From NCBI RefSeq assembly GCF_007992835.1, contig NZ_BKBA01000008.1:496001-560000 (forward strand): a stretch of 64,000 bases of DNA, given 5' to 3'. The first letter of the stretch is position 1, and each line of letters starts with the position of its first letter. This stretch comes from Knoellia locipacati. Lineage in GTDB: Bacteria; Actinomycetota; Actinomycetes; Actinomycetales; Dermatophilaceae. The notes beneath the pieces are model-generated. The model was not told where the DNA came from. It saw nothing but the letters and a program-made list of their open reading frames with translations, and ran no database searches. The translations under genes were made by a program, and so were the position numbers. Positions 1,705-64,000 of the stretch are shown here, in pieces.

Positions 1705-2949
1705 TTAACCCTCGGTCCGGACGCCGAAGTCGCCGCGAGCCACGGTGACGTGGAGCAGCTCGTCGACCTCGAGCACGGTGGGGTCGTGCACGACGGCCCC
1801 GTCGATGCGTTGGACGATCGCGTAGCCGCGGTCGAGCGTCGACTGCGGTGACAGGGTGCGGACCTGGGCCCGCAGGTGGCCGACCCCGTCCTGGTGGCGG
1901 TGGACCTGCGCCTCGATGCGGTGGCGCGCTCGCGACCGCAGGGCCACGACGACCTCGCGCTGCACGCGCAGGAAGGCGCCGGGGTCGGCCAGCACCGGCC
2001 GCGACCGCAGCTCCACGAGGCGTCGCCGCTCGTGGTGGAGGCGTCCCTCGACGGCACGCCGTGACCGGGACCGGGCCGCGTCCACGGCCTGGTGCTCCCG
2101 CTCGGCGTCCGGGACGATCGCCTTGGCCGCGTCGGTCGGGGTGGACGCGCGGTGGTCGGCGACGAGGTCGAGCAGCGGGGTGTCGACGTCGTGCCCGATG
2201 GCGCTGACGATCGGTGTGCGCGCGGCCGCGACCGCACGCAGCATCGCCTCGTTGCTGAACGGCAGGAGGTCCTCGACGTTGCCCCCGCCACGCGCGATGA
2301 CGATGACGTCGACATCCGGTATGCCGTCCAGCTCGCCGAGCGCCTGGGTCACTTCGGTGACCGCGGTGGCGCCCTGCACGGCGACCTGGCGGATCTCGAA
2401 GCGCGCCGTCGGCCACCGGCGTCGGGAGTTCTCGACGACGTCCTTCTCGGCCGCGCTCGCCCGGCCGCAGATGAGGCCGATGCGGCGGGGGAGGAAGGGC
2501 AGGGGCCGCTTGCGGTCGGCGTCGAAGAGGCCCTCGCTCGCGAGGTTGCGCTTGAGGTACTCGATCCGAGCCAGCAGCTCGCCGACACCGACGGGCCGGA
2601 TCTGTCGCCCGTCCATGGTGAGGGTGCCGCGCTGGGTCCAGAACGACGGCTTGGCCTGGACGACGACCCGCGCGCCCTCGGTGACCGGGGCGGCCATCGC
2701 GTCGAGGGCGTTGACGTGGATGGAGACCGAGAGCGACATGTCGACGTCCGCGTCGCGCAGCGTGAGGTAGGCCGTGCGCGCACCCGGTCGTCGGTTGAGC
2801 TGGATGACCTGGCCCTCGACCCAGACGACCGACATCTTCTCGACGTAGTCGGCGATCTTCATCGAGAGCAGCCGGACCGGCCACGGCGCCTCGGCGGTCG
2901 TGTCGGCCGCCCGCTCGGGGAGGGTCGGTCGCTGCGCGGGTTCGCTCAC
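1705..2949 (-). CDS. xseA: Exodeoxyribonuclease VII large subunit
   Basis: It is the catalytic subunit of exonuclease VII (414 residues). An N-terminal OB-fold (about residues 25-130, with YVEKMSVVWVEGQV) is followed by the catalytic domain containing the RGGGNVEDL and GHDVDTPL motifs, then a C-terminal coiled coil with the family-typical TLDRGYAIV near the end. The GTG at 2949 was chosen because a TAGAGT -10 box ends 6 bases upstream, implying a leaderless mRNA. A GTG at 2955 is in frame and would overlap that box. The gene is followed directly by xseB. Confidence 0.93.
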   Translation of the reverse strand: MSEPAQRPTLPERAADTTAEAPWPVRLLSMKIADYVEKMSVVWVEGQVIQLNRRPGARTAYLTLRDADVDMSLSVSIHVNALDAMAAPVTEGARVVVQAKPSFWTQRGTLTMDGRQIRPVGVGELLARIEYLKRNLASEGLFDADRKRPLPFLPRRIGLICGRASAAEKDVVENSRRRWPTARFEIRQVAVQGATAVTEVTQALGELDGIPDVDVIVIARGGGNVEDLLPFSNEAMLRAVAAARTPIVSAIGHDVDTPLLDLVADHRASTPTDAAKAIVPDAEREHQAVDAARSRSRRAVEGRLHHERRRLVELRSRPVLADPGAFLRVQREVVVALRSRARHRIEAQVHRHQDGVGHLRAQVRTLSPQSTLDRGYAIVQRIDGAVVHDPTVLEVDELLHVTVARGDFGVRTEG

Positions 2950-3018
2950 GCGCACACTCTAGGAGTGGGCGGTGTCAGCACCCGGCCCACCGCCCTTCTC
3001 GGACAGCCGGCCCGGCGC

Positions 3019-3966
3019 TCACTCGACCGAGTACCTGGACCAGGTGAAGAGCACGCCGTCGCCGAACGTCCCGGCGGCCCGGCCGAGGCCCTGGACGGCG
3101 GTGGTGGGGCCGCTCAGTGAGCCGACGGCATACAGGTGGTTGGCCCCGGTGTCGCGGTCGATGCCCGCGAGGAGCGTGCCGTGCCGTCCGCACGGTTCGG
3201 CGACCATGGCCTCGAAGCCCTGCCACGAGCGCGCCCGCACCTGCTGCACCACCGGCGCCATCGGGGTCGTGGTGGGGATCCGGACGCTGTAGAGCGCCCC
3301 GCCCGTGGTGTTCATGAGCAACGTGTCCGAGGCCGCGCCGTGCTGGACCACGACCATCGACCTCACCGACCGGAAGCCGGGGCTGCCCTGCCTGGCGGTC
3401 CAGCCGGTGCCGGACCGCCGCCAGCGGGAGAGCACGCCGTCCTTGCCCAGGGCGTAGAGGTGGGTCGTCTCCGGCGGCTCGAACGCGTAGCCGGTGACCT
3501 CCATGGCCCGCATGGCGCTCCACCCGCCGCCCATGCGGGTGAGTCGTGGTTCGCCCGGGTCCGGGGTCCCGCTGTCCGTCGTCTGGTACTCCGCGCGGAA
3601 GAGCACGTCGCCCAGGACGACCCACTGGAACACCCGGTAGCGCGCGGGGTCCGCGGACGGCCAGGTGTTGGCACGGGTGGCCATCGTCGTGGCGCCGTCG
3701 GGATACAGGTCCCGCATGGCGGTCGTCGGCGCGAAGCCCGTCGGCGGCGAGGTGCCGAGCAGGACACGGTTGAGGTGGTCACCCGAGGCGTTGATCGCTC
3801 CGACGGCGACGCCGCACCGTCCGGCGGTCGTCCTCGTGGTCGTCGTCGTCGTCGTCGGTGCGGCTGCCGCCGCCGCTGGGGTCGCGCCGGATGACGCGAC
3901 CAGGGCTGCGACCACGACGGCGACGGCAGCGGCGGCCGCCCCGGACCTGTGCACGCGCTTCGACAT
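3019..3966 (-). CDS. Secreted protein, possible beta-propeller (hypothetical)
   Basis: A 315-residue protein with a clear Sec signal peptide: basic MSKRVHRS, then a long Ala/Val hydrophobic run ending in an Ala-rich cleavage zone near residue 30. A Thr-rich linker follows. The mature part repeats segments such as [31 protein letters not shown] and [11 protein letters not shown], spaced about 45-60 residues apart. That suggests a tachylectin/PQQ-like beta-propeller; this is an inference from repeat shape, not a family match. The ATG at 3966 is preceded by AGGAGGAG at good spacing. The gene is divergent from ispH. No function is claimed. Confidence 0.72.
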
Positions 3967-4063
3967 CGGCTCCTCCTGTGGCCACCGCATCCCGATCCGG
4001 TCGACGGTACTCGCGCCGGACGGCATACAGGGGGTGTTCAGGTCCGCCCGTACGATGGGAGGC

Positions 4064-5089
4064 ATGACCGCCACGACTGACCAGGCCACCAAGCGCGTCC
4101 TCCTGGCCGCGCCCCGCGGCTACTGCGCCGGGGTCGACCGGGCCGTCGTCACGGTCGAGAAGGCGCTCGACCTCTACGGCGCCCCGGTCTACGTCCGCAA
4201 GGAGATCGTCCACAACAAGCACGTCGTGACGACCCTGGAGAAGCGCGGCGCGATCTTCGTCGAGGAGACCGACGAGGTCCCCGAGGGCGCGACCGTGATC
4301 TTCTCCGCGCACGGCGTCGCCCCGGTCGTCCACGAGGAGGCCAAGGCGCTGGGTCTCAAGACGATCGACGCCACCTGCCCCCTCGTCACCAAGGTCCACC
4401 GCGAGGCCGTGCGCTTCGCCAGCGACGACTACGACATCCTCCTCATCGGCCACGAGGGCCACGAGGAGGTCGTCGGCACCGCCGGTGAGGCGCCCGAGCA
4501 CATCACCCTCGTCGACGGGCCCGACGACGTCGACAACGTCACCGTCCGCGACCCCGACAAGGTCGTGTGGCTCTCGCAGACCACGCTCTCGGTCGACGAG
4601 ACCATGGAGACGGTGCGCCGCCTGCGCGAGAAGTTCCCGCAGCTGCAGGACCCGCCCAGCGACGACATCTGCTACGCCACCCAGAACCGCCAGCTCGCGG
4701 TCAAGCACATGGCCCCCGACTGCGACCTCATGATCGTCGTCGGCTCGCGCAACTCCTCGAACTCCGTGCGCCTCGTCGAGGTGGCGCTCGAGCACGGCTC
4801 CAAGGCCGGCCACCTCGTCGACTACGCCGAGGAGATCGACGAGACCTGGCTCGACGGCGTGCGCACGGTCGGCGTCACCTCCGGTGCCTCCGTGCCCGAG
4901 ATCCTCGTGCGCGGTGTCCTCGACTACCTCTCGTCTCGGGGCTTCGAGGACGTGCGCCCCGTCGTCGCCGCCGAGGAGTCGCTGATGTTCTCGCTGCCCA
5001 ACGAGATCCGTCGCGACCTCAAGGCCGCGGGCCTGTCCGACAAGATGCGCCACGACGGCTCGTTCGCCGAGGCCGGTTCGCTGCACTGA
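4064..5089 (+). CDS. ispH: 4-hydroxy-3-methylbut-2-enyl diphosphate reductase IspH
   Basis: It catalyses the last step of the MEP isoprenoid pathway, reducing HMBPP to IPP and DMAPP with a [4Fe-4S] cluster. The 341-residue protein has the three cluster cysteines in their usual contexts ([33 protein letters not shown]) and the substrate contacts SAHGVAP and GSRNSSNS. The ATG at 4064 has GGGAGG just upstream and also a TACGAT -10 box 7 bases away, so it could be read leaderless. An ATG 9 bases earlier is possible. The gene also corresponds to the mycobacterial lytB2 position in the conserved gene order. Confidence 0.96.
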
Positions 5090-5115
5090 CGACGCGGACC
5101 GAGCGAGGGTATGCC

Positions 5116-5763
5116 GTGAGCGCACCCGAGCCGGTCGTCCTCGCCTACCCGTTCACGGGGCTGTGGCGGGTGGAGAACTCGCCGGCGAGGCGGGTTCCCA
5201 GCCACGGCACGTAGGCGTTCGGCGTCTCGCACGCCATCGATTTCGTCGCGGTCGACGAGCGAGGGCTGTCGGCACCGCACACGTGGCGCTCCTGACTGGG
5301 CCTCGAGGCGCCCACGGGCTTCGTCGGGTTCGGCTCTCCCGTGCTCGCGCCGGTCGGCGGGACGGTCGTGGCCGTCCACGACACGGAGCCCGACCACGAG
5401 GCCCGGCGCTCGCGCGTGCGGCTCGTGGGCTACGCGCTGGGGCAGGCCGGACGGGCTCGACGCGGCATCGTCGGGCTCGCCGGCAACCACGTCGGCATCG
5501 CGCTGGCCGACGCCGGGCCGTACGTCCTGCTCGCCCACCTGCGGCAGGGCTCGGCGCTCGTGTCGGTCGGCGAGATCGTCGCCGTCGGTCAGCAGGTGGG
5601 GGAGTGCGGCAACAGCGGCAACAGCACCGAGCCCCACGTGCACGTCCAGGTGAGCGACTCGCTCGACGGCATCGGGGCACGCGGGTTGCCCTTGGTGTTC
5701 CGCGGTGACGACGGCGTTCTCCGCGTGCCGGACGAGGGTGAGGTCGTCAGGGTCGGGGGGTGA
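5116..5763 (+). pseudogene. M23-type peptidase-like gene broken by two in-frame stops
   Basis: One continuous frame from a GTG at 5116 to a TGA at 5761-5763 reads as an M23/LytM-like protein, but it is interrupted by TAG at 5212-5214 and TGA at 5293-5295. Before the first stop it reads AYPFTGLWRVENSPARRVPSHGT; between the stops FGVSHAIDFVAVDERG; after them FGSPVLAPVGGTVVAVHD and, near the end, GNSTEPHVHVQVSD with the HxH pattern of the family. All three parts are colinear in one frame, so single-base substitutions (for example GAG to TAG and CGA to TGA) are the simplest cause. A GTG at 5341 could still start the C-terminal 140 residues, which would lack the N-terminal part of the metal site. 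Confidence 0.85.
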
Positions 5764-6531: not shown

Positions 6532-7722
6532 CTAGCCGGCGCGGGTGCCGGTCCCGTCGGTCGCTGCGGGCGGGTCGAGCAGCAGCTCGGCGCGACGATC
6601 CTCGGCGCCCACGACCTCGAGCAGCTCGACGGCGGTGAGCACCCGGGGCCCGGTCTCGACCGGGCCGAGGTCGGGGAGGTCGTCGGTGACGAGCTCGAGC
6701 TCCTGCATGCGCCGCGCGGTGACGAACACCCGGGACTCGAGCGCGCCGACGAACTGGTTGTAGCTCTCGACGGTGGCGTGCAGCGAGCGGCCCATCTTGG
6801 CGGCGTGGGTGCCGAGGGTGGCGAGACGTCGGTAGAGCTCCTGGCCCAGGGCGAGCAGCTCACGGGCGCTCGTCGAGAGCGAGTCCTGCTGCCACCCGAA
6901 CGCGACGGTGCGCAGCAGCGCGAGCAGCGCACCCGGGCCCACGAGCACGACCTTGTCGGCCATGGCGCGCTCGTGCAGCCCGGGGTCGGCGGCGAGGGCC
7001 GCGGCGAGCATCGCGTCGCTCGGGACGAAGCAGACGACCATCTCGGGGGTGGCGTCGAACGCCGACCAGTAGTCCTTGGCGGCGAGCCCGTGGACGTGCT
7101 GGCGCAGCGCCCGGGCGTGGTCACGCAGGAGCTCGGCGCGCTCGTCGTCGGGCAGCTCCTCGGTCTGGGCGTCGAGGAACGCCGCCATCGGGGCCTTGGC
7201 GTCGATGACGAGCGCGCGGTCACCGGGCAGGCGCACGACGACGTCGGGCCTCACCTCCCGGTCGTGGCGGCTGCGGGCCCGGACCTGCTCCTCGAAGTCG
7301 CAGCGGGCGAGCATGCCCGACGCCTCCAGCACGCGACGCAGCTGGACCTCGCCCCACGAGCCACGCACCGACGACGAGCGCAGCGACCCGGCGAGGGACT
7401 GGGTCTGGCGGCCGAGCTGCTGGGCCTCGGACTCCACCCGGCCCATGACCGCGCGGATCGCGCCGAACTGCTCGACCCGGTCGCGCTCGAGCACGCCGAC
7501 CTGGCGCTCCACCCGCCCGAGGGCGTCGCGCAGGGGAGCAAGGAGCGAGGCCGTCTCGAGGTCCTCGGCGAGCGAGGCCTCGAGGTCGAGCACCCGCTCG
7601 CGCAGCAGGTCGCGCTCGGTCGCCACGGAGGCCGCGCGGACGGCATACGCCTGCTTGAGGAGCAGGTATGCCGTCAGCGCACCGAGAAGGATGCCGCCCA
7701 CCAACGCGATCCACGGGTTCAT
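6532..7722 (-). CDS. rmuC: DNA recombination protein RmuC
   Basis: A 396-residue RmuC homologue, a family linked to limiting DNA inversion and rearrangement, with a predicted restriction-endonuclease-like fold. There is an N-terminal membrane helix (ALVGGILLGALTAYLLL), a coiled coil over about residues 30-110, then the conserved core SVRGSWGEVQLRRVLE, RPDVVVRLPGDRALVIDAKAP and the MVVCFVPSD strand. The ATG at 7722 is the first start before the membrane helix. It is divergent from the Nudix gene, with 54 bases between the starts. The Asp/Lys pair in VIDAK is the nuclease-like catalytic signature. Confidence 0.92.
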   Translation of the reverse strand: MNPWIALVGGILLGALTAYLLLKQAYAVRAASVATERDLLRERVLDLEASLAEDLETASLLAPLRDALGRVERQVGVLERDRVEQFGAIRAVMGRVESEAQQLGRQTQSLAGSLRSSSVRGSWGEVQLRRVLEASGMLARCDFEEQVRARSRHDREVRPDVVVRLPGDRALVIDAKAPMAAFLDAQTEELPDDERAELLRDHARALRQHVHGLAAKDYWSAFDATPEMVVCFVPSDAMLAAALAADPGLHERAMADKVVLVGPGALLALLRTVAFGWQQDSLSTSARELLALGQELYRRLATLGTHAAKMGRSLHATVESYNQFVGALESRVFVTARRMQELELVTDDLPDLGPVETGPRVLTAVELLEVVGAEDRRAELLLDPPAATDGTGTRAG

Positions 7723-7776: not shown

Positions 7777-8271
7777 ATGGCTGACAGTGGGCGTTCGTTC
7801 ATCCACGTCCTCAACGAACGGCTGCCGCGCAAGCGCAACATCGCCCAGGGGCTCCTTCGCAACGAGGACGGCGAGGTCCTGCTGTGCGAGCTCACCTACA
7901 AGTCGGAGTGGGACCTGCCCGGTGGGGTCGTCGACCCCCGGGAGTCGCCGGCAGCCTGCGTCGTCCGGGAGATCAGCGAGGAGCTCGGTGTGAGCGTCGG
8001 GATCGACGCACTGGTCACCGTCAACTGGCTGCCGCCGTGGCGTGGCTGGGACGACGCCGTGCTCTTCCTCTACGACCTCGGCACGGTGCCGCGCTCGTTC
8101 ACGGACGACCTCACCCTGCTCAAGCGCGAGCTCAAGGCCGTGCACTGGGTGGCCCCGGAGGACGTCGCGGCGCACGTGGCGCCCTACAACGTGCGGATGC
8201 TGCAGCAGGTCCTGCAGGGCGAGCACGCGGCATACATGGAGAACAGCGAGATCCCCGGCGGGCTCGCGTGA
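7777..8271 (+). CDS. Nudix hydrolase
   Basis: A 164-residue Nudix-fold pyrophosphohydrolase. The Nudix box is complete: GGVVDPRESPAACVVRE followed by ISEELGV, near residues 48-70. The substrate cannot be read from sequence; housecleaning of damaged or excess nucleoside diphosphate derivatives is typical. The ATG at 7777 has a TAGCCT -10 box 6 bases upstream and no ribosome-binding site, so the mRNA is probably leaderless. Its stop overlaps the GTG of the next membrane-protein gene (GTGA), which indicates translational coupling. Confidence 0.88.
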   Translation: MADSGRSFIHVLNERLPRKRNIAQGLLRNEDGEVLLCELTYKSEWDLPGGVVDPRESPAACVVREISEELGVSVGIDALVTVNWLPPWRGWDDAVLFLYDLGTVPRSFTDDLTLLKRELKAVHWVAPEDVAAHVAPYNVRMLQQVLQGEHAAYMENSEIPGGLA

Positions 8272-8504: not shown

Positions 8505-9590
8505 GTGGCACTCACCATCGGAATCGTCGGGCTCCCCAACGTCGGCAAGTCGACGATGTTCAACGCCCTGACCAAGAACAACGTCCTCGCCGCGAACTAC
8601 CCGTTCGCGACCATCGAGCCCAACGTCGGCGTCGTCCCGCTGCCGGACTCGCGTCTCGAGCGGCTCGCGGAGATCCACGGGTCCGAGAAGATCCTGCCCG
8701 CGACCGTGTCGTTCGTCGACATCGCCGGCATCGTGCGCGGCGCCTCGGAGGGTGAGGGCCTCGGCAACAAGTTCCTCGCCAACATCCGTGAGGCCGACGC
8801 GATCTGCCAGGTCGTGCGCGCGTTCGAGGACGGCGACGTCGTCCACGTCGACGGCAAGGTCTCGCCGGAGTCGGACATCGAGACGATCCACACCGAGCTC
8901 ATCCTCGCCGACCTCCAGACCCTCGAGAAGGCCGTCGTGCGCCTCGAGAAGGAGGCCCGGATCAAGAAGGAGTCCAAGCCGCTCCTCGAGAACGCGCTCG
9001 CCGCCCAGAAGGTCCTCGAGGAGGGCAAGACGCTGTATGCCGCGGGCGCGGCTGCCGGTGTCGACCTCGACGGGGCGCGTGGGCTGGGTCTGCTCACCAC
9101 CAAGCCGTTCATCTACGTGTTCAACCTCGACGAGGACCAGCTGACCGACGCGGACCTGCAGTCGTCGCTGCGCGCGCTCGTCGCGCCTGCTGACGCGGTG
9201 TTCCTCAACGCCAAGCTCGAGATGGACCTCATGGACATGTCGCCCGAGGACGCGCAGGAGATGCTCGAGGGGTTCGGCGCCACCGAGTCCGGCCTCGACC
9301 AGCTCGCGCGCACCGGTTTCCACACCCTCGGGCTGCAGACCTACCTCACCGCAGGTCCCAAGGAGTCGCGCGCCTGGACCATCGGGCAGGGCTGGACCGC
9401 GCCGCAGGCCGCCGGTGTCATCCACACCGACTTCCAGCGCGGATTCATCAAGGCCGAGATCGTCTCCTTCGAGGACCTCGACTCGGCGGGGACGATGGCC
9501 GTGGCCAAGGCGGCGGGCAAGGTTCGTATGGAGGGCAAGGACTACGTCATGCAGGACGGCGACGTCGTGGAGTTCCGCTTCAACGTCTGA
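8505..9590 (+). CDS. ychF: Redox-regulated ATPase/GTPase YchF (Obg family)
   Basis: A ribosome-associated P-loop NTPase of the Obg/HflX class that hydrolyses ATP in preference to GTP in studied members. The 361 residues carry G1 GLPNVGKST (residues 9-17), the [10 protein letters not shown] switch region, a coiled-coil insertion with [18 protein letters not shown], and the C-terminal TGS domain ending [14 protein letters not shown]. Full length. The GTG start at 8505 lies 9 bases after TAGACT, giving a leaderless or nearly leaderless transcript. A strong hairpin follows the stop at 9611. Confidence 0.96.
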
Positions 9591-9654: not shown

Positions 9655-9775
9655 TGTCTCGTTCAGTCGGCGAGCAGGGACCCGGCGGTGATGAGCTGGT
9701 ACCCCCCACGGGCCACCGTCTCGGCGTCGCCGGCCATCCCGCCCGCACCGCCGGACGGCATACGGGAGTCCCTCG

Positions 9776-9994: not shown

Positions 9995-10162
9995 GAGACG
10001 CAAGGTTCGCAGGACGGCATACGGGCATGCAACGGGGTTTGGGCTCCGAACTCGACACGAATCGAGGCGGCGCGTCCGTGTGACCTGGAGCACTCCGACC
10101 CCTAATGTTGCGCGGTGGTGCGCTCAACGGTGCCCGCATCCGAGACGAAAGAGGTTGTTCTC

Positions 10163-10546: not shown

Positions 10547-12192
10547 GCAACGTCAACTGGACCGCCCTGGTCATCCTCGTGCTGCTCTTCGGCACGGTGA
10601 CGATCATGGGCTTCATGGCCACGCGGTGGCGCCGCCCGACGAGCATGGAGTCGCTCGACGAGTGGGGCCTCGGCGGTCGCTCGTTCGGCACGTGGATCAC
10701 GTGGTTCCTCCTCGGAGGTGACCTCTACACGGCATACACGTTCGTCGCCGTCCCGGCCGCGATGTTCGCGACGGGTGCCGTCGCGGGCTTCTTCGCCGTG
10801 CCCTACACGATCGTGCTCTACCCGATCATCTTCATCTTCATGGCGCGTCTGTGGTCGGTGAGCCACCGCCACGGCTACGTCACGCCGGCCGACTTCGTCA
10901 AGGGTCGCTACGGCAGCCGTCCGCTGTCGCTCGCGGTCGCCCTCACCGGCTTCCTCGCGACGATGCCCTACATCGCGCTCCAGCTCGTCGGCATCCAGGC
11001 CGTGCTCGAGGTCGTCGGGCTCGGCGGCGGGGACAACCTCCTCGCCAAGGACGCGCCGCTGTTCATCGCCTTCGCCCTGCTCGCGGCCTACACCTACAGC
11101 AGCGGCCTTCGCGCGCCCGCCGTGATCGCTTTCGTCAAGGACACGCTCATCTACCTCGTCATCATCGTCGCGATCATCTACCTGCCCTCCAAGGTCGGTG
11201 GCTGGGACGCGATCTTCAGCGCGGCCCAGGAGAAGATGGCCAAGCCGAGTGCGGCCGACCCGGCCAAGCCGACCGGCGCCTTCATCCCCGGCAGCCAGCA
11301 GATGTGGGCCTACGCGACCCTGGGCCTCGGCTCGGCGCTCGCGCTCTTCATGTACCCCCACTCGATCACCGCGAGCCTGTCGGCGAGCGGCCGCAACGTC
11401 ATCCGGCGCAACGCGGCGATCCTGCCGGCGTACTCGTTCGTGCTCGGCCTCCTCGCCCTCCTCGGGTGGGTGGCCATCGCGGCCGGCACCAAGCCGATCG
11501 GCCTCGACGGCAAGCCCAACGCGCAGCTCGTCATCCCGCAGCTGTTCGAGGACATGTTCCCGAGCTGGTTCGCCGGCGTGGCGTTCGCGGCGATCGCCAT
11601 CGGTGCGCTCGTGCCGGCGGCGATCATGTCGATCGCGGCGGCCAACACGTTCACCCGCAACATCTACAAGGAGTGGCTCAAGCCGGGCGCGACCCCCAAG
11701 CAGGAGGCCAAGGTCTCCAAGCTCGTCTCGCTCGTCGTCAAGGCGTTCGCGCTGGTCTTCGTGCTGCTGCTCGACAAGCAGAACGCGATCAACTTCCAGC
11801 TCCTCGGTGGCATCTGGATCCTCCAGACGTTCCCGACGATCGTCTTCGGCCTCTACACCCGCTGGTTCCACCGCTGGGGCCTGCTCGCGGGCTGGGCGGT
11901 GGGCATGGTCTACGGGACGTACACGGCATACAACGTCATCAACCCCGTGACCAAGGGCCACTTCGGCGGCTCGCTCAGCATGATCCCGGGGCTGGCGCAG
12001 CTGGGCTACATCGCGATGACGGCGTTCGTCATCAACGCCGTCATCGCCGTCGTCGTCAGCCTCGCCCTCAACCTCCTCAAGGTGCCGAACGGCGCCGACG
12101 AGACCATCAAGGGCGACTACTTCGCCGACGCGGGCGACCCGCGCGTCGAGAAGCTCGACGTCGGCGTCCACGAGACCACGGCCAGCCCGTGA
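10543..12192 (+). CDS. Sodium:solute symporter family permease (monocarboxylate-type)
   Basis: A 549-residue polytopic protein with about 13 hydrophobic segments of the SSS/LeuT fold. It probably couples sodium or proton entry to uptake of an organic acid. Conserved family segments include the first helix, GLGGRSFGTWITWFLLGGD and SHRHGYVTPADFVKGRYGS. The linkage to DUF3311 is typical of the MctP/acetate-lactate-pyruvate branch, so a monocarboxylate is the best guess; the substrate cannot be read from sequence. The ATG overlaps the upstream stop (ATGA), so subunit synthesis is coupled. A hairpin follows at 12218. Confidence 0.88.
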   Translation: MSNVNWTALVILVLLFGTVTIMGFMATRWRRPTSMESLDEWGLGGRSFGTWITWFLLGGDLYTAYTFVAVPAAMFATGAVAGFFAVPYTIVLYPIIFIFMARLWSVSHRHGYVTPADFVKGRYGSRPLSLAVALTGFLATMPYIALQLVGIQAVLEVVGLGGGDNLLAKDAPLFIAFALLAAYTYSSGLRAPAVIAFVKDTLIYLVIIVAIIYLPSKVGGWDAIFSAAQEKMAKPSAADPAKPTGAFIPGSQQMWAYATLGLGSALALFMYPHSITASLSASGRNVIRRNAAILPAYSFVLGLLALLGWVAIAAGTKPIGLDGKPNAQLVIPQLFEDMFPSWFAGVAFAAIAIGALVPAAIMSIAAANTFTRNIYKEWLKPGATPKQEAKVSKLVSLVVKAFALVFVLLLDKQNAINFQLLGGIWILQTFPTIVFGLYTRWFHRWGLLAGWAVGMVYGTYTAYNVINPVTKGHFGGSLSMIPGLAQLGYIAMTAFVINAVIAVVVSLALNLLKVPNGADETIKGDYFADAGDPRVEKLDVGVHETTASP

Positions 12193-16430: not shown

Positions 16431-16456
16431 ACGGCATACGGGCTCTCGTATGCCGT
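16431..16456. repeat. Inverted pair of the CGGCATAC/GTATGCCG octamer
   Basis: ACGGCATACG (16431-16440) and CGTATGCCGT (16447-16456) form a perfect 10-bp inverted repeat around GGCTCT. Elsewhere in the window the motif is mostly single. It abuts the terminator hairpin of the peptide-transporter operon. Confidence 0.85.
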
Positions 16457-31206: not shown

Positions 31207-31213
31207 GAGCGGC

Positions 31214-34091: not shown

Positions 34092-34124
34092 CGCGCGACG
34101 CCCGCCGGCTGCCCGGCATACGCA

Positions 34125-37184: not shown

Positions 37185-37185
37185 G

Positions 37186-39331: not shown

Positions 39332-39338
39332 TCGCCGT

Positions 39339-52853: not shown

Positions 52854-53435
52854 CTAGGTCGCTCGGTGCGATCCGCCCTCATCGGTCCGGGCGTTGAGGG
52901 TGTCTGACGCGTCACGGTCGTCGGGGGCGAGCCGGCCGATGACGAGACCACGCTCCTCGATCTCGTCGAGGAGGTCGCGCAGCTCTCCACGGACGAAGTC
53001 ACGGGTGGCGTTGTCACGCATCGCGATCCGCAGTGCGGCGACCTCGCGGGTGAGGAACTCGGTGTCGGCGAGGTTGCGCTCGTCGCGGGTGCGGTCCTGC
53101 TCGAGCATGACTCGGTCACGGTCGGCCTGCCGGTTCTGAGCGAGGAGGATGAGCGGTGCGGCATACGAGGCCTGGAGGCTGAGCATGAGCGTGAGGAAGA
53201 TGAACGGGTACTCGTCGAAGCGCCAGTCCTGCGGTGCGAGGAGGTTCCACAGCACCCACACGAGCACGAAGAACGTCATGCCGATGAGGAAGTAGGCCGT
53301 CCCCATGTAGCGGGCGAACTTCTCGGACAGGACGCCGAAGGCCTCCTCGGTGAGGGCCTCGGGCCTGCTGATGAACTGGCGCCTCGCCTCGCGTGGCTGG
53401 TCGAGGCGAGGCGCGCGGTCGCGGCGCTCAGCCAT
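52854..53435 (-). CDS. DUF1003 membrane protein
   Basis: A 193-residue protein with two membrane helices ([20 protein letters not shown] and [21 protein letters not shown]) separated by a short loop with DEYPF, followed by a charged C-terminal region ([17 protein letters not shown]). This is the DUF1003 signature. Function unknown; the family is often found beside magnesium transporter-like genes, as here, and the 8-base overlap with the MgtE-N/CBS gene implies they act together. Confidence 0.9.
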
Positions 53436-54807: not shown

Positions 54808-55344
54808 TCAGCGGCGCCCTCGTCCGCGCCAGTGCCACGGGCGCCACGTCGCCGTCGTGCCCCGCGCAGGGGTGACGGTGACGCGGCCGTGCTCCGCGGC
54901 ATACGAGCCCGGCGACTCGTCGGGACGGCCGTGCGGGGTGAGGACGTGGATGACGCAGCCCTCCCGCCACCGCGCGACGACGTCGCCGGTCGCGTTGAGG
55001 CGCTCCGCCCGCAGCACCTCGGCGGCCTGCTCCCACTCCGGCGTCGCCGGGTCCAGCTCCCTGGCGCCGGCCCTGAGGGTGAGCAGCCGGGCGCCGCTGT
55101 CCTTGCTCCGGAAGATCACGCCCACCTCGTCGGGCAGGTGTGGCAGCCGTTGCTCACCGATCCCCGAGACGACGTATGCCGCAGGGCCGGCTCCGCGGGG
55201 GTCCTCGTCGTCGTGCCAGACGAACCAGACGGCGTGGGCGCCCTTGTCGGGCACCTCGATCCACATCACGCCGGACTTGCTCGCCGCCTCGGCGAGCAGG
55301 CGCGTCACGTTGACGGGGGAGGGTGTCTCCGGAGAGCCGCTCAC
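54808..55344 (-). CDS. Conserved hypothetical protein
   Basis: A 178-residue protein without signal peptide or membrane helix. It is predicted all soluble, with alternating strands such as [40 protein letters not shown] and [24 protein letters not shown]. Homologues are known in actinobacteria without function, as far as I recall. The GTG at 55344 has GACAGT 7 bases upstream as a possible leaderless -10; the longer GTG at 55368 would add 8 residues. It is divergent from the CitE-fold lyase. Confidence 0.72.
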
Positions 55345-55398: not shown

Positions 55399-56499
55399 AT
55401 GCGCTCACCCAAGGACTTCTTCGGCCCTCTCGCGGTCGGCGCCCCGGCGCCGGTGCGTGAGGTCCCTGCCCGCCCCAGCCGGATGATCCACTTCTTCGAC
55501 CCGAGCAACGAGAAGATGGCCGCGAAGGTCCCGGGGATGGTCGGCACCGTCGACGTCCTCCTCGGCAACCTCGAGGACGCGGTCAAGGCCGACCGCAAGG
55601 AGGCGGCGCGCCAGGGCCTCGTCGACATCGCGAAGGCGACCGACTTCGGTGACAGCACCCAGCTCTGGACGCGCGTCAACAGCCTCGACAGCCCGTGGGT
55701 CCTCGACGACCTCATCACCCTCGTCACCGAGATCGGCGACAAGCTCGACGTCATCATGGTGCCCAAGGTCCAGGGCCCCGAGGACATCCACTACGTCGAC
55801 CGGATCCTCGCCCAGCTCGAGGCCCGCGCCGGCCTCACCCGGCCGATCCTCGTGCACGCGATCCTCGAGACGGCCCGCGGCATGGCCAACGTCGAGGCCA
55901 TCGCCGGCGCCTCCCCGCGCATGCAGGGGATCAGCCTCGGGCCGGCCGACCTCGCCGCCGACCGCCGGATGAAGACCACCCGCGTCGGTGGCGGCCACCC
56001 GGGCTACCTCGTGCGGCAGGACCCGGCGACCGACCTCGGTGAGGGCGTGGACCCGGTCACCGCCGAGCGCACGACCTACCAGCAGGATCTGTGGCACTAC
56101 ACGATCGCCCGCATGGTCGACGCCTGCGCGATGCACGGGATCTTCCCGTACTACGGCCCGTTCGGGGACATCAAGGACGTCGTCGCCTGCGAGGACCAGT
56201 TCCGCAACGCCTTCCTCCTCGGCTGTGTGGGCACGTGGTCGCTGCACCCCGTGCAGGTCGACATCGCCAAGCGCGTTTTCAGCCCGTCCGCCGAGGACGT
56301 GGCCCACGCCCGTCGGGTCAAGGAGGCGATGGGTGACGGCACCGGCGCCGTGATGCTCGACGGCAAGATGGAGGACGACGCCTCGCTCAAGCAGTGCCTC
56401 GTCATCCTCGAGCTCGCGGAGCGCCTCAGTGCGAACGACCCGGAGCTCGCGGACCTGTATGCCGTCGACGCACCTGCCGCCGAAGGTGAGGGGTCCTGA
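55399..56499 (+). CDS. Malyl-CoA/beta-methylmalyl-CoA lyase-like protein (HpcH/HpaI, CitE fold)
   Basis: A 366-residue CoA-ester lyase of the HpcH/HpaI aldolase family. The barrel includes LLGNLEDAV (metal/acid region near residue 55), [39 protein letters not shown] with the metal Glu, and [12 protein letters not shown]. Length and the C-terminal lid resemble Mcl1 rather than CitE. The best reaction guess is cleavage of (3S)-malyl-CoA or beta-methylmalyl-CoA to glyoxylate plus acetyl- or propionyl-CoA. The ATG is 8 bases after TAGCGT. The stop and the next ATG share one base (TGATG). Confidence 0.82.
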
Positions 56500-57371
56500 T
56501 GGGTGGGCAGACGGCATACACGCCTCGTCGTTCGGTCCTCTACATGCCGGGGTCGAACGAGCGGGCCCTCGAGAAGGCCAAGACGCTGCCCGTGGACGCC
56601 CTCATCCTCGACCTCGAGGACGCGGTCGCGCCGGACGCCAAGGAGGGTGCACGCGAGAACGTCTGTGCGGCAGCGGTGTCGGGCGAGTACGGCAACCGTG
56701 AGGTGACGATCCGCGTCAACGGCACCGGCACGCAGTGGCACGACGCCGACCTCGCCGCGGCGGCACAGGCCGGTCCCGCCGGCGTCGTCGTGCCCAAGGT
56801 CGGCTCGGCCGACGAGGTGCGCTCGCTCGTGTCCGCCCTCGAGGCCGCCGGCGCTCCCGAGCACACGAGGCTCTGGGCGATGATCGAGACGCCCGAGGCG
56901 ATCCTCAACGTGCGCGAGATCGCCGCCGCCTCGCCGCGGCTGGCCGTCCTCGTCATGGGGACCAACGACCTCGTCAAGGAGCTGCGGGCCGACCACGTGC
57001 CCGGTCGCGGACCCCTCGTCACCTCGCTCCAGCTGTCGCTGCTCGCCGCGCGCGAGTCGGGGATCGCGATCCTCGACGGCGTCTACAACGACGTCAAGGA
57101 CGCCGAGGGCTTCGAGGCCGAGTGCGTCCAGGGCCGTGACTTCGGCTTCGACGGCAAGACCCTCATCCACCCGGGGCAGGTCGAGGTGTGCAACTCGACC
57201 TTCGCCCCGAGCGAGGCTGCGGTCGCCGATGCGCGCGGCATCCTCGAGGCCTGGGAGGCGGGCGCCGGCAGCGGTGTCGTCACCCACAACGGCCGGATGA
57301 TCGAGAACCTCCACGTCGAGATCGCCGAGCGGGTGATCGCGACCCACGACGTCATCGCGGGTCGGCGGTAG
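56499..57371 (+). CDS. CitE-like protein, possible (3S)-malyl-CoA thioesterase
   Basis: A 290-residue CitE-fold enzyme: RSVLYMPGSNERALEKAK, LILDLEDAVAPDAKE with metal ligands, EVTIRVNGTGTQW, WAMIETPEAILNVREIAA and DFGFDGKTLIHPGQVEVCN. It is shorter than the preceding lyase and lacks its lid. In purple bacteria such a pair is Mcl1 (lyase) and Mcl2 ((3S)-malyl-CoA thioesterase) of the ethylmalonyl-CoA pathway; the tight coupling here suggests the same, but crotonyl-CoA carboxylase/reductase is not in the window. Its TAG stop begins a TAGGAT box for the next gene. Confidence 0.8.
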   Translation: MGGQTAYTPRRSVLYMPGSNERALEKAKTLPVDALILDLEDAVAPDAKEGARENVCAAAVSGEYGNREVTIRVNGTGTQWHDADLAAAAQAGPAGVVVPKVGSADEVRSLVSALEAAGAPEHTRLWAMIETPEAILNVREIAAASPRLAVLVMGTNDLVKELRADHVPGRGPLVTSLQLSLLAARESGIAILDGVYNDVKDAEGFEAECVQGRDFGFDGKTLIHPGQVEVCNSTFAPSEAAVADARGILEAWEAGAGSGVVTHNGRMIENLHVEIAERVIATHDVIAGRR

Positions 57372-59032: not shown

Positions 59033-59295
59033 TCGTGGACTCCGAGGTGTGAAGGATGTGGGCACGGGAACGGCCCAGGACAGTCGTGGACATGTCACGC
59101 CTCCTCGGAGTCGGTGCACGGGCATCGGTATGCCGTGCGGCTGGGTCCCAGCGTGGCACCCCTCCTCGGGTGCGCGCCACCGAATTGTCAGCGCGGGAGG
59201 TGGGAGGACTCACACGGCTGACGGGTGGGAGCGGACTGGGGCGGACGGCATACTCGACAACGTCTGTCCCCCACTCACGAAGGCGGCTTCCACGC

Positions 59296-60510: not shown

Positions 60511-60621
60511 GCTCGTTCCTCGCGCACCTCTCGAGTCGCAGCTCAAGGGCCGAGCACCGCGTTCGTATGCCGGTCAGCGGGCTCCCAGCCTTCATCCAGT
60601 CCGGGGTGCGAAACTAGGGGC

Positions 60622-61206: not shown

Positions 61207-61242
61207 GCCTGCCCCACGGGAGCCGGGGCTAGCCTGAACGCC

Positions 61243-61992
61243 ATGGATGCAGCCCCGTTCGACCCTCCGCTGGAGGCGTTCCCCGAGGACTTCACGTCAG
61301 TCCTGTGTGTCGTCGCCCACCCCGACGACATCGAGTACGGCACGGCGGCCGCGGTCGCGAAGTGGACCGAGGCGGGCACGACCGTGACCTACTTCCTGCT
61401 CACCCGCGGTGAGGCAGGGATCGACACGATGGCACCCGACGAGGCCGCCCGCGTGCGTGAGGCCGAGGAGCGGGCCAGTGCCGCCGTCGTCGGCGTGACC
61501 GAGGTGGACTTCGGCAACCACCACGACGGGGTCGTCCAGTACGGCCTGGACCTGCGGCGCGACATCGCCCGCGAGATCCGTCGTCGCCGTCCGGACGTCG
61601 TGGTCACGGGCGACTACGGCGACCGCTTCGTCGCGGGCATGCTCAACCAGGCGGACCACCGTGCGGTGGGGCTGGCCACGGTGGACGCGGTCGCGGACGC
61701 CGGCAACCGGTGGATCTTCCCCGAGCTCGTCGACGAGGGCTTCGAGCCGTGGAGCGTCAAGGTGCTCGCGTTCTCGGGCACCTCACGACCGACGCACTAC
61801 GTCGACGTCTCCGACCGCGTCGCGGTGGCGGTCGCCTCGCTCGAGGAGCACACGGCATACAACTCAGCCCTGCCGGACGACTTCCCCAAGCCGGACCAGC
61901 TCGTGCCGATGATCCTCGAGATGGGCGCCAAGGCGGCACAGGTCGAGGGCGTCACGCACGCCCTCGTCCTCGACGTCGTCAACCGCCGCTGA
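61243..61992 (+). CDS. PIG-L family deacetylase
   Basis: A 249-residue LmbE/PIG-L fold zinc enzyme. The metal motif is VVAHPDDIEYG (His near 27, Asp-Asp), the second part GNHHDGVVQYGLDLRRDI and the third ligand region NQADHRAVGLATVDAV. It is shorter than MshB at 27004, and the mid-region differs, so it is probably a paralogue with another N-acetyl-sugar or mycothiol-conjugate substrate; the Mca amidase is one possibility that sequence alone does not settle. The ATG is 7 bases after TAGCCT (leaderless). It converges on pepP with a 13-base gap. Confidence 0.87.
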   Translation: MDAAPFDPPLEAFPEDFTSVLCVVAHPDDIEYGTAAAVAKWTEAGTTVTYFLLTRGEAGIDTMAPDEAARVREAEERASAAVVGVTEVDFGNHHDGVVQYGLDLRRDIAREIRRRRPDVVVTGDYGDRFVAGMLNQADHRAVGLATVDAVADAGNRWIFPELVDEGFEPWSVKVLAFSGTSRPTHYVDVSDRVAVAVASLEEHTAYNSALPDDFPKPDQLVPMILEMGAKAAQVEGVTHALVLDVVNRR

Positions 61993-62005
61993 GGCCCCCG
62001 CGGGG

Positions 62006-63502
62006 TCAGACGGCGTTCTCCTCGCGGATGTCGGCGATCCACGCCTCGACGTCGGCGCTGCTGCGCGGCATCGCGGCCGAGAGGTTCTCGTTGCCGTCGG
62101 CGGTGATGACGATGTCGTCCTCGATGCGCACGCCGATGCCGCGGAAGCGCTCGGGCACCTTGAGGTCGTCGGCCTTGAAGTACAGCCCGGGCTCGACGGT
62201 GAGGACCATGCCCGGCGCGAGCTCGGCGTCCATGTACTCGGCGCGGGTGGCGAGGGCGCAGTCGTGGACGTCGAGGCCGAGGTGGTGCGAGGTGCCGTGG
62301 ACCATCCAGCGGCGGTGGTACTGTCCGTGCTCGGTGTCGAGGGTGTCCTCGACCGAGACGCCCTCGGGCAGCAGGCCCCAGGCGTGCAGGTGCTCGGCGA
62401 TGACGCGGATGGCGGCGGCGTGGATGTCCGAGAACTTCGCGCCCGGCTTGGCCGCGGCGATCCCGGCCTCCTGCGCGGCGTACACGGCGTCGTAGATCTC
62501 GCGCTGCGCGTCGGTGAAGGTGCCGCTCACGGGGAGGGTGCGGGTGATGTCGGCGGTGAAGAGCGAGTCGACCTCGACACCGGCGTCGAGGAGGACGAGG
62601 TCACCCTCGGCGACGTCACCGGTGTTCTTGATCCAGTGCAGGGTGTTGGCGTGGTCGCCGGACGCGGCGATCGAGTCGTAGCCGACGCCGTTGCCCTGGT
62701 GGCGGGCGTGCAGGCCGAAGATCCCCTCGATCCAGCGCTCGCCGCGACCGAGCTCGGCGGCGGTCTCGAGCTCGGCGATGACCGCCTCGAAGCCGACGTG
62801 CGTGGCTGCGACGGCCTCACGCATCTGCTCGATCTCGTACTCGTCCTTGGTGAGGCGCAGGACGGACAGGGCGTGCGCGAGAGCGTCGTCGTGCTCGGCG
62901 AGCGACTCGCGCTCGGCGCCGTTCTCGACCCGCGACTCGTCGAGCGAGGCGGTGAGCTCGCGGTCGGCGTCGCGGACGACACGCACGGTGACTTGACCGG
63001 CGTCCTTGGCCACGGCCGCCTCGAACTCGTCGATGTGGCGGGCGGTGAGGCCGAGCTCGAGCTCGATGTCGGCCAGGCTGGGGCGGGCGCCGACCCAGAA
63101 CTCGCCGTAGCGGGCGTCGGCGAAGAAGTCGTCGCTGTCGCGCTCGCCGAGCGGGCGGAAGTAGAGGACGGCCTCGTGGCCGTCGTCGGTGGGCTCGAGG
63201 ACGAGGACGGCGTCGGGCTCGCGGTCCGCGCCCAGGCCCGTGAGGTGGGCGAACGCGGTGTGCGGGCGGAAGACGTAGTCGGTGTCGTTGCTGCGCACCT
63301 TGAGGCCACCGGCGGGCACGACGAGCCGGTCACCCGGGAAGGCGGCGCTGACGTCCTCGCGGCGCGTCGCGGCATACGGAGCCGCAGGGGACTGCCCGGT
63401 CGCCTGTGGGCGACGCTCGGCCCAGTCCTCACGGACGAAGCCGCGGAACTCCTCGGTCGTCGGACGCGCGCGGTTCTCTGCCTGCTTCTGCTCTTCGCTC
63501 AC
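62006..63502 (-). CDS. pepP: Xaa-Pro aminopeptidase (aminopeptidase P)
   Basis: An M24B metallopeptidase of 498 residues that releases N-terminal residues before proline. The AMP_N domain covers about residues 45-180 (FPGDRLVVPAGG, YVFRPHTAFAHLTG). The pita-bread catalytic domain has DLVLLDAGVEVDSLFTADITRTLPVSG with two Asp ligands, GTSHHLGLDVHD with His, GMVLTVEPGLYF with Glu and GIGVRIEDDIVIT with the last Glu. The GTG at 63502 has CACCAT 6 bases upstream, overlapping the divergent promoter of the DUF2332 gene. Confidence 0.93.
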   Translation of the reverse strand: MSEEQKQAENRARPTTEEFRGFVREDWAERRPQATGQSPAAPYAATRREDVSAAFPGDRLVVPAGGLKVRSNDTDYVFRPHTAFAHLTGLGADREPDAVLVLEPTDDGHEAVLYFRPLGERDSDDFFADARYGEFWVGARPSLADIELELGLTARHIDEFEAAVAKDAGQVTVRVVRDADRELTASLDESRVENGAERESLAEHDDALAHALSVLRLTKDEYEIEQMREAVAATHVGFEAVIAELETAAELGRGERWIEGIFGLHARHQGNGVGYDSIAASGDHANTLHWIKNTGDVAEGDLVLLDAGVEVDSLFTADITRTLPVSGTFTDAQREIYDAVYAAQEAGIAAAKPGAKFSDIHAAAIRVIAEHLHAWGLLPEGVSVEDTLDTEHGQYHRRWMVHGTSHHLGLDVHDCALATRAEYMDAELAPGMVLTVEPGLYFKADDLKVPERFRGIGVRIEDDIVITADGNENLSAAMPRSSADVEAWIADIREENAV

Positions 63503-63507
63503 GGCTC

Positions 63508-63514
63508 TATGGTG
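63508..63514. promoter_or_regulatory. Overlapping divergent leaderless -10 boxes
   Basis: The plus strand reads TATGGT (63508-63513), 7 bases before the GTG at 63521. The minus strand reads CACCAT (63514-63509), 6 bases before the GTG at 63502. The boxes share five base pairs, so the two promoters must compete. Confidence 0.6.
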
Positions 63515-63520
63515 GCACGC

Positions 63521-64000
63521 GTGAGTGCGTACGACGGAGCCACCGTGGTCGAGCGGATGCGCAGCCACTGGGGCGGCAGCACCGACCACCTCTACGGCGT
63601 GCTCGTGCGTGAGCTCGCCGACGACTGGGACCGCGGCGGTGTCGTGCGCGAGATCCTGCGGGGGCGGGAGGATGCGCCGGCCGGCGACATGGTCCAGCTG
63701 CGGCTGCTCGCCGGCATCCACCGGATCGTGCTGCGTGGCGAGGCGCCCGGGCTGGCCTGCTTCTATCCCTCTGTGGGTGGAACTGCCGACCGGTATGCCG
63801 TGTGGCCGGCGTTGGAGCCTGTCCTGCGTGCGCACGTGGCCGAGCTGCGCGAGGGGCTGGACGTGGCGCCGCAGACCAACGAGGTCGGCCGGTCGGTCGC
63901 GCTGCTCGCCGGACTGTCGGAAGCGGTGCGACGGACCGGTCTGCACCGGGTGCGGCTCCTCGAGCCCGGGGCGTCGGCGGGGCTCAACCTGCTCGTCGAC
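63521..64000 (+). CDS. DUF2332 family protein (3' end cut by window edge)
   Basis: The first 160 residues of a DUF2332 protein: VVERMRSHWGGSTDHLYGVLVRELADDWDRGG, LRLLAGIHRIVLRGEAPGLACFYPSVGG and RVRLLEPGASAGLNLL, the last resembling a methyltransferase-like nucleotide loop. Function unknown. The GTG at 63521 is placed by the TATGGT box 7 bases upstream. The frame remains open to the last base, so the C-terminal part lies outside the window. Confidence 0.85.
   Translation, partial: MSAYDGATVVERMRSHWGGSTDHLYGVLVRELADDWDRGGVVREILRGREDAPAGDMVQLRLLAGIHRIVLRGEAPGLACFYPSVGGTADRYAVWPALEPVLRAHVAELREGLDVAPQTNEVGRSVALLAGLSEAVRRTGLHRVRLLEPGASAGLNLLVD

Follow-up and report, generated by a model that had tools for sequence, protein, structure and literature searches.

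A conserved octamer with clade-wise dialects suggests that Knoellia and some of its relatives may recognise and take up DNA of their own kind

Abundance of the octamer within and between genes

The window, that is, the whole stretch of DNA analysed, comprises 64 kb of Knoellia locipacati (contig NZ_BKBA01000008.1, positions 496,001-560,000; genome 3.59 Mb). The host genome is that of a Knoellia (Dermatophilaceae/Intrasporangiaceae) with 71% G+C. The octamer GTATGCCG, non-palindromic as read from the word itself, occurs in the window as 53 exact copies, 24 forward and 29 reverse, the first starting at 2319 and the last ending at 63800; this agrees with an earlier note, which had claimed about 53 copies in these near-equal orientations. 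Base composition alone leads to 2.2 expected copies, and 100 dinucleotide shuffles of the window gave a mean of 0.65 and a maximum of 3, so that the excess is about 24-fold over composition, close to the 20-fold over about two expected copies previously claimed, and about 80-fold over dinucleotides. TATGC pentamers mostly lie within the word (53 of 58 in the window). In Knoellia a T often follows the word directly, and a subset of the copies carries GCbCACC, a G+C-rich extension, three bases downstream of the core.

By our own gene calls, genes contain 39 copies and the 6.6% of sequence outside them contains 14, which confirms the use both within and between genes described before. Copies in genes are found on the forward strand at 2319..2326, 9035..9042, 12509..12516, 17628..17635, 23135..23142, 27588..27595, 30273..30280, 35079..35086, 36477..36484, 41892..41899, 44755..44762, 46047..46054, 48012..48019, 55174..55181 and 63793..63800, and on the reverse strand at 3126..3133, 4021..4028, 10730..10737, 11924..11931, 14650..14657, 19834..19841, 23035..23042, 27278..27285, 30771..30778, 39970..39977, 42268..42275, 43406..43413, 46797..46804, 52481..52488 (within an Mrp-like ATPase gene), 53159..53166, 54897..54904, 61853..61860 and 63370..63377. 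Intergenic copies lie on the forward strand at 5109..5116, with a GCGCACC extension, at 39337..39344, a gene edge tallied as intergenic, and at 59128..59135 and 60565..60572, and on the reverse strand at 8228..8235, 9756..9763, 10015..10022, 31210..31217 (also a gene edge tallied as intergenic), 34114..34121 and 59246..59253. The remaining copies form the inverted pairs described below.

The coding copies mostly fall on Tyr-Ala or Ala-Tyr pairs, and the rare codons GCA and TAT that the word was said to impose are indeed there: 17 of the 27 TAT codons precede GCC, and 17 of the 48 Ala-Tyr pairs are GCA TAC. Codon usage cannot explain the word, since 300 synonymous shuffles of the coding sequence yielded 1.5 copies, with a maximum of 5, against the 39 observed. 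Furthermore, in 464 kb of Knoellia the excess over the reversed word is equally strong outside genes (74 versus 3) and inside them (212 versus 9), and not confined to coding DNA as the earlier note had supposed a codon-pair effect would be. The density of the word is 1.9-fold higher outside genes; the reversed control (3 outside, 9 inside) shows the same ratio, and the word therefore has no preference for noncoding DNA.

The whole 3.59-Mb genome holds 2,535 copies, or 706 per Mb (1266 forward, 1269 reverse), against 99 of the reversed word (49 forward, 50 reverse), so the excess withstands the genome-wide count proposed as a check, at about 25 times the control. When octamers were ranked by observed over expected counts in local samples, GTATGCCG came first in 28 of 32 word-rich genomes.

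Conservation and arrangement of the copies

At sites aligned with congeners of 83-88% identity, the word was exact in 143 of 196 cells, against 37.6% for control octamers; for intergenic cells the figures were 34 of 37 and 27.9%. The copies at 23035 and 23135 are exact in 6/6 aligned congeners each, and that at 59246 in 7/7. Genome-wide excess, intergenic excess and intergenic conservation bear out the suggestion that the DNA word as such is the target of selection or of some other process. Copies arise by substitution and not by insertion: congener sites lacking the word differ by substitution, with gaps in just 4 of 196 cells. Flank identity is 0.78-0.80 within 30 bp of the word and 0.84-0.85 beyond 300 bp.

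Orientation is non-polar. In a complete congener, sampled as 20 evenly spaced 20-kb stretches and with its origin located from GC skew and contig start alone, the inferred leading strand holds 124 of 233 copies (p=0.36), which upholds the view that the word does not behave as a polar KOPS- or Chi-like signal. Spacing averages 1354 bp across 265 gaps and is near exponential (sd/mean 1.03) rather than regular. Among these 20 samples the two with the fewest copies have 2 and 3, against a mean of 11.65; one contains a TrwC relaxase and catabolic genes and the other a glycosyltransferase/heparinase locus, and in this small test of two annotated stretches the word is scarce in island-like DNA.

Neighbouring copies within 120 bp of each other are inverted in 22 of 23 cases in Knoellia. 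In the window such pairs lie within genes at 7641..7648 (reverse) and 7666..7673 (forward), 25756..25763 (forward) and 25803..25810 (reverse), and 49981..49988 (reverse) and 50021..50028 (forward). Outside genes, the copies at 16432..16439 (reverse) and 16448..16455 (forward) are the arms of a hairpin with a fold of -17.5 kcal/mol, and those at 56457..56464 (forward) and 56512..56519 (reverse), intergenic by our own calls, are exact in 7/8 and 8/8 congeners. The inverted pairs of Knoellia are predicted hairpins at gene ends, six chosen ones folding with z from -4.0 to -9.2, as use of the word in transcription terminators alone would have it; however, in just 18 of 265 pairs are the two neighbours no more than 60 bp apart.

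Dialects in the family and in a second family

GTATGCCG abounds in all nine Knoellia genomes and in 37 of the 60 genomes of the family. Of the remaining 23, seven show genome-wide enrichment of a one-base variant in its place, GGATGCCG (3949 copies in G033, 3816 in G024, 2195 in G051) or GTACGCCG (3903 in G047, 2618 in G055, 2216 in G030), and GGATGCCG is also carried by a second family within the order. Some GTATGCCG-rich family genomes additionally use GTATGACG, whose totals are 1954 in G034 and 1557 in G011. There are, then, clade-wise dialects differing by few bases, and they are the strongest new fact of the analysis, one that a single window could not reveal.

In the sole clade that allowed the comparison, the old sites are lost between dialects: between G046, which uses GTATGCCG, and G033 and G024, which use GGATGCCG, the word is kept at 0/10 and 0/7 aligned sites, with controls at 0.30-0.32. 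Sister genomes with the same word retain 4/6, 5/8, 6/9 and 11/21 sites (controls 0.17-0.40), and few sites are retained, despite a same or overlapping dialect, in G047/G031 (1/6, 1/3) and G009/G051 (0/3, 0/13). Close pairs are inverted in 18 of 24 cases in 23 further word-rich genomes, but other dialects show little or no such bias, with 10/15 in ten family dialect genomes, 15/27 with GTATGNCG in G011/G034 and 7/16 in two f19 genomes.

Candidate readers of the word and known uptake systems

These results suggest that Gram-positive Knoellia and some of its relatives may recognise and take up DNA of their own kind. From its sequence characteristics, we consider it rather likely that GTATGCCG is a DNA uptake sequence in an actinobacterial system with dialects, and among the candidates that the earlier note listed an uptake motif fits best. 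The putative parts of the system are competence, a sequence-specific receptor, biased uptake and drive. A surface receptor of a natural-transformation machine would prefer GTATGCCG, and DNA from the same species or a close one would thereby enter the cell and be incorporated by recombination; this biased uptake, together with recombination, would then, as a molecular drive, add and repair copies wherever they are tolerated. A shift in the preference of the receptor would shift the word genome-wide and so yield dialects, and the inverted pairs of Knoellia would have gained a second role as gene-end hairpins. With some hesitation, we lean towards the broader proposal that the Dermatophilaceae and the second family share an independent Gram-positive uptake-specificity system with dialects GTATGCCG, GGATGCCG, GTACGCCG and GTATGNCG, in which a putative receptor, perhaps on a Tad/Flp pilus, would direct gene exchange towards partners of the same dialect group, as happens in Neisseria.

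Knoellia possesses ComEA, ComEC and Tad/Flp genes, and Flp/Tad pili are reported to be needed for transformation in another actinobacterium, Micrococcus luteus (PMC6370729). ComEC, ComEA and TadA do not track the word, being near universal in the family genomes searched: ComEC was found in 57 of 60, and T2SSE/TadA and ComEA-type HHH_3 in 36 of 36, word-less ones included (the TadA match in G014 is weak). One Tad pilin, seemingly missing from word-less genomes, was rejected as tracking the word when it turned out to be present there, and the word-less G017 and G018 retain both Tad loci. PilM of type IVa pili (PF11104) is absent from all nine Knoellia and, in the 60 family genomes, matched only in G032 and G027. 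These gene distributions speak against the uptake reading, as do the weak or missing inverted-pair bias of other dialects, the few sites retained in G047/G031 and G009/G051 and the lack of an overall excess of one-off words.

A DNA-binding protein abundant inside the cell, such as a nucleoid, segregation or chromosome-organising factor, whose sites are under selection and whose specificity drifts between genera, would account for genome-wide spread in both orientations, conserved sites and one-base shifts, and would have been lost in word-less lineages. We regard it as unlikely: some 700 sites per Mb in coding DNA, at a cost in rare codons, would presumably be a large burden, spacing is near exponential and the word is scarce in the two island-like stretches. 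Furthermore, the position of a site seems unimportant because old sites vanish between dialects in G046/G033/G024, which also argues against such a binder.

Distinctly unlikely, too, is a ratchet in which a methyltransferase with biased repair, or a mutational bias, makes and keeps the word without uptake. To our knowledge, MutS/MutL-type mismatch repair is usually lacking in Actinobacteria, which counts against it. The precedent is HIP1 (GCGATCGC), a genome-wide cyanobacterial octamer described as having lineage variants and losses, as GTATGCCG does, and as tracking methyltransferases (PMC4390886). HIP1 and its octamer variants are, however, palindromic in that account, and the ratchet model given for it predicts that one-off words accumulate. 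No overall excess of these was seen for GTATGCCG, with 294 in sum against about 315 expected under a second-order Markov model that is itself inflated by the word; single words above expectation include CTATGCCG (15 versus 7.2) and GTAGGCCG (30 versus 18.5), and GTATGACG numbers just 7 in G000. Nor does a ratchet predict the inverted close pairs of Knoellia.

Chi words are short, over-represented and different between taxa, and Chi sites resemble GTATGCCG as enriched non-palindromic octamers. That a helicase-nuclease, AdnAB or AddAB included, reads the word as a recombination signal of the Chi kind nevertheless seems very improbable, as the word lacks the strand bias across replichores of the polar Chi and KOPS/FtsK motifs. 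RecC (PF04257), needed for a RecBCD reading, is missing from 9/9 Knoellia; of the 37 word-rich family genomes just 6 have it, against 8 of 12 sampled word-less ones. Codon-pair or terminator usage alone, which the 39 coding copies and the gene-end hairpins might suggest, stands hardly any chance and is refuted as a full explanation by the synonymous shuffles and the intergenic conservation given above.

We know of no DUS or USS reported so far outside the Neisseriaceae and Pasteurellaceae. If the uptake reading is true, it would add to these two families a third case, unrelated to them, found in monoderm Actinobacteria and with a dialect series, implying that uptake words evolve repeatedly; it would also offer a natural experiment on their cause (self-preference, drive or repair), predict gene-exchange partners among these bacteria and possibly aid the transformation of genera with few genetic tools. 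Even if no uptake receptor reads the word, about one copy per 1.4 kb has been placed in these genomes by some protein or process, whose specificity can be traced base by base along a tree.

The neisserial DUS, as described in PMC2397512, PMC7371117 and PMC12616744, parallels GTATGCCG as a short non-palindromic word with thousands of copies at similar spacing (about 1.1-1.5 kb, 1150-1500 in PMC2397512), strongly conserved even where the sequence is otherwise permissive, rare in islands and ICEs, and with dialects by clade. Its inverted pairs act as terminators, a role that the hairpins of Knoellia may share. Divergent flanks are likewise reported for DUS, in a study that controlled for intergenic sites, which our comparison did not. 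The neisserial system reads its DUS via the ComP receptor and a type IVa pilus, whereas Knoellia lacks PilM, belongs to the Actinobacteria and not the Proteobacteria, has 71% G+C, and carries a candidate uptake word that has no CTG core. The Pasteurellacean USS is described as a 9-bp core with weaker flanking segments, in two clade-specific types, and as likewise created by substitution rather than insertion (PMC1626085). The USS of H. influenzae is 65% coding (PMC1626085), compared with 212 of 286 genic copies for Knoellia, in which the flanking extension (GCbCACC) is G+C-rich and receptor and competence are putative. The AT-DUS of Neisseria (PMC7371117) and the Knoellia word with its favoured T share ATGCCGT, probably by chance.

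The octamer and its conservation in Knoellia

The earlier note had counted about 53 copies of the octamer GTATGCCG, or CGGCATAC in its other orientation, in the 64 kb of the window, and the exact number is 53, of which 24 are forward and 29 reverse. When the window was shuffled with its dinucleotides preserved, GTATGCCG occurred 0.65 times on average and at most 3 times, and 53 of the 58 TATGC pentamers in the window lie within the octamer. Genome-wide (G000, 3.587 Mb in 19 contigs) the word occurs 1266 times forward and 1269 times in reverse, and the reversed word, a control with the same letters read backwards, 49 and 50 times. The excess is real and reaches beyond what was first noted: the genomic word is family-wide and forms dialects.

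A codon effect is not the cause of the excess. Shuffling synonymous codons among the window genes (300 shuffles) left a mean of 1.5 copies and a maximum of 5, where the real coding DNA has 39. The other 14 of the 53 window copies lie outside called genes, in 6.6% of the window. In 464 kb of Knoellia DNA, made of the window and 20 evenly spaced samples of 20 kb from the complete congener G003, 286 copies were found, 212 in 391 kb of genes and 74 in 72.5 kb outside, by a simple G+C-by-codon-position scheme that probably calls too much noncoding DNA in G003 (15.6% for samples and window together, 6.6% for the window alone). The reversed word, with 9 copies in genes and 3 outside, matches the 1.9-fold higher density outside genes, so that a preference of the word for noncoding DNA is unsupported and the excess inside genes is like that outside.

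Parts of the window could be aligned with eight congeners, which are 83-88% identical to it there. In these alignments 143 of 196 congener cells hold an exact copy of the octamer, against 37.6% of 69,452 cells for control octamers of the same composition; outside genes the exact cells are 34 of 37, against 27.9% of 3,862. The word is conserved far more than its surroundings, and its flanks are unconserved, with an identity of 0.78-0.80 within 30 bases of the word and 0.84-0.85 beyond 300 bases. TAT codons were kept in 58 of 66 cells within the word and in 23 of 42 elsewhere, GCA codons in 41 of 53 and in 91 of 325, respectively. The synonymous shuffles and the intergenic conservation bear out the proposal of the earlier note that selection or a process acts on the DNA word itself. 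Cells lacking the word differ by substitutions, gaps being present in only 4 of the 196, and among the 46 such coding cells the peptide was changed in 28 and unchanged in 18. The window also contains a conserved Mrp-like ATPase gene (51699-52823), whose closest named relative is from Knoellia sp. Soil729 (92%), which makes Knoellia the most likely source of the window.

Distribution and dialects

In a survey of this genome and 97 relatives, where word-rich means more than 150 copies per Mb, all nine Knoellia and 37 of the 60 genomes of the family (Dermatophilaceae/Intrasporangiaceae) were word-rich; of the remaining family genomes, 18 had fewer than 35 copies per Mb and 5 were intermediate. 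No word-rich genome was found among 38 from 19 other families of the order. Named loci with the word come from Knoellia, Terrabacter, Pedococcus, Humibacillus, Tetrasphaera/Nostocoides, Flexivirga, Ornithinimicrobium and others, and those with 0-2 copies each from Janibacter, Kytococcus, Marihabitans, Kineosphaera and several Phycicoccus. A tree of 54 genomes gave 11 Fitch changes or 12 Dollo losses when word-poor genera were counted as plain losses. This count is obsolete, since among the 23 family genomes with fewer than 150 copies per Mb seven have a one-base dialect enriched genome-wide (G024, G033, G047, G055, G030 and, most weakly, G009 and G031).

A blind octamer search, covering 8-80 kb from each of 54 family genomes (all of the 60 except G037, G040, G041, G043, G053 and G057), showed that several word-poor genera carry a one-base variant instead, and genome-wide counts agree. 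GGATGCCG reaches 3949 copies in G033, 3816 in G024, 2195 in G051 and 1336 in G009, against 260-1027 in other family genomes; G051 is double, with 1217 copies of GTATGCCG as well. GTACGCCG reaches 3903 in G047, 2618 in G055, 2216 in G030 and 1359 in G031, against 39-590 in other family genomes except G026, whose 752 copies are ambiguous since up to 900 are found outside the family (G081). GTATGACG has 1954 copies in G034, 1557 in G011, 319-834 in six more genomes (G012, G019, G041, G013, G025, G042) and mostly fewer than 100 elsewhere, and therefore some genera seem to read GTATGNCG. GAATGCCG in G020 and GTATGCGG in G027 each come from a single 20-kb sample.

Where the dialect switches, between G046 (GTATGCCG) and two GGATGCCG genomes, the word was kept at 0 of 10 (G033) and 0 of 7 (G024) aligned sites, and control octamers at 0.30-0.32. 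Between genomes sharing a word, the sites kept were 4 of 6 (G046 to G028), 5 of 8 (G049 to G039), 6 of 9 (G029 to G058), 11 of 21 (G011 to G034) and 3 of 7 (G033 to G024), with control octamers at 0.17-0.40. There are contrary cases, G047/G031 keeping 1 of 6 and 1 of 3, and G009/G051 0 of 3 and 0 of 13, but on the whole these aligned sites, small in number, suggest that the word matters and not the place.

Beyond the family, GKATGCCG was scanned in 394 genomes of the class. By eye, the highest word-to-control ratio noticed in about 354 genomes belonging to neither f1 nor f19 was 5.5. This value was exceeded by 14 of the 20 f19 genomes, and G095, with 4491 copies of GGATGCCG, reached a ratio of 22. 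Family f19, of the same order, is probably Microbacteriaceae, judging by the family's size in the order.

No word was found in 9 of 12 word-less family genomes sampled over 60-80 kb each (G010, G016, G017, G018, G021, G022, G048, G052, G056), and unrelated words were present in the other three. The word-less sisters G044 and G045, neighbours of Janibacter massiliensis (G056) on the tree, have a different abundant nonamer, CGAAGGGGG, on both strands: it occurs 29 (L175, L266, L267) and 32 (L203, L268, L269) times in 60 kb with 2.7 and 2.2 expected, and could be an uptake word of theirs or a word of another kind. Word-less G014 (L180, L258, L259) has 19, 18 and 10 copies in 60 kb of GGAGNCGGT for three alternatives of the middle base, on both strands, where 0.9-1.9 of each are expected. 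Words around GCATCG show a weaker excess in family f10 of the order, for example with GCATCGGC at 22 against 5.3 (L244, G068) and GACGATGC at 18 against 3.2 expected (L252, G086), and are perhaps another word family.

Spacing, inverted pairs and islands

In the 464 kb of Knoellia DNA the word is spaced at a mean of 1354 bp, with the 265 gaps near exponential. Replichore polarity was rejected: of the 233 copies sampled in G003, 124 are on the leading strand (p=0.36), with the origin assumed at the contig start, a placement consistent with the sign of its weak GC skew. Close neighbouring copies (<=120 bp) are inverted in 22 of 23 pairs; 18 pairs are <=60 bp apart, and 10 of these are intergenic with the words facing each other, 9 of them adjoining the 3' end of a called gene. 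Six hand-picked hairpins have fold energies of -17.5 to -55.5 kcal/mol and z-scores of -4.0 to -9.2. Among 24 close pairs from 23 other word-rich genomes, 18 are inverted; the bias is above all a Knoellia feature, since in the dialect sets it falls to 10 of 15 (ten family dialect genomes), 15 of 27 (G011/G034 with GTATGNCG) and 7 of 16 (two f19 genomes).

The base after the core, at position 9, is preferentially T (0.53). Two extensions also recur at fixed spacing on the downstream side: GTATGCCGnnnGCbCACC was seen 15 times and GTATGCCGnnnnGCCGGC 9 times. Copies that carry this T, GTATGCCGT, have the run ATGCCGT in common with the Neisseria AT-DUS (PMC7371117), which is probably chance, though odd.

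The G003 samples average 11.65 copies; the two poorest of the 20 have 2 and 3 (Poisson 0.0007 and 0.003), and both, the only two annotated, are island-like. L140 (G003:C1:730001-750000), with 2 copies, encodes a 1917-aa TrwC relaxase/helicase/primase beside catabolic genes (acetaldehyde dehydrogenase, HMGL-like aldolase), a content like that of an integrative conjugative element; the other sample has glycosyltransferase and heparinase-like genes.

An uptake-sequence reading and its candidate readers

The uptake sequences of Neisseria (DUS) and Pasteurellaceae (USS) are short words, not palindromic, that occur hundreds to thousands of times. Their copies are strongly conserved yet sit at permissive places, are rare in islands and frequently form inverted pairs serving as terminators; in Neisseria the spacing is about 1.1-1.5 kb. 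The words arise by substitution and fall into clade-wise dialects (PMC2397512, PMC7371117, PMC12616744, PMC1626085). The Knoellia word matches these features at the sequence level; its inverted pairs, putative terminators, do not clearly extend to the other dialects. An uptake-sequence system in Actinobacteria, working like DUS/USS, is the best explanation and one we hold to be somewhat probable, with functional membership putative. We found no report of such a word in Actinobacteria in the open-licence literature searched, the coverage of which is partial.

The word differs from HIP1, which is palindromic and for which the ratchet model predicts one-off words (PMC4390886). The 24 one-base neighbours of the word sum to 294 in the 464 kb, against about 315 expected from a second-order Markov model that the word itself inflates; CTATGCCG (15 against 7.2), GTAGGCCG (30 against 18.5) and GGATGCCG (64 against 44) are singly above expectation. 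Chi of RecBCD is rejected because polarity is absent and RecC is missing in Knoellia. In the family RecC is patchy and, uncorrected for kinship, shows the opposite pattern to the word: 6 of the 37 word-rich genomes have it, against 8 of the 12 word-less ones sampled (G014, G017, G018, G021, G044, G045, G048, G052).

Regarding the reader of a putative uptake word, PilM of the type IVa pilus is present in 18 of the 98 genomes compared and absent from Knoellia; judged by PilM, the putative Knoellia system is without the type IVa pilus system of Neisseria, which was rejected as the reader. ComEC (92 of 98 genomes compared) and both T2SSE/TadA and ComEA-type HHH_3 (58 of 58 searched, including 36 of the 60 family genomes) are so nearly universal that they cannot separate word-rich from word-poor genomes. 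In Knoellia, ComEA and ComEC are adjacent and Tad/Flp loci are also present, and Tad/Flp pili are needed for transformation in the actinobacterium Micrococcus luteus (PMC6370729). Word-less genera also have ComEA, ComEC and Tad/Flp, so gene presence does not pinpoint the reader.

Tad loci were compared gene by gene in 20 stretches (L216-L235) from 11 genomes. A TadE-like pilin apparently lost in word-less G017 and G018 was found in translated gaps, where the gene caller had missed it, and was dropped as a candidate. The T2SSE/TadA match of word-less G014 is only weak. Each of the nine genomes with two stretches taken has two separate Tad/Flp-like loci, one of which encodes Flp followed by three pilin-like small proteins.
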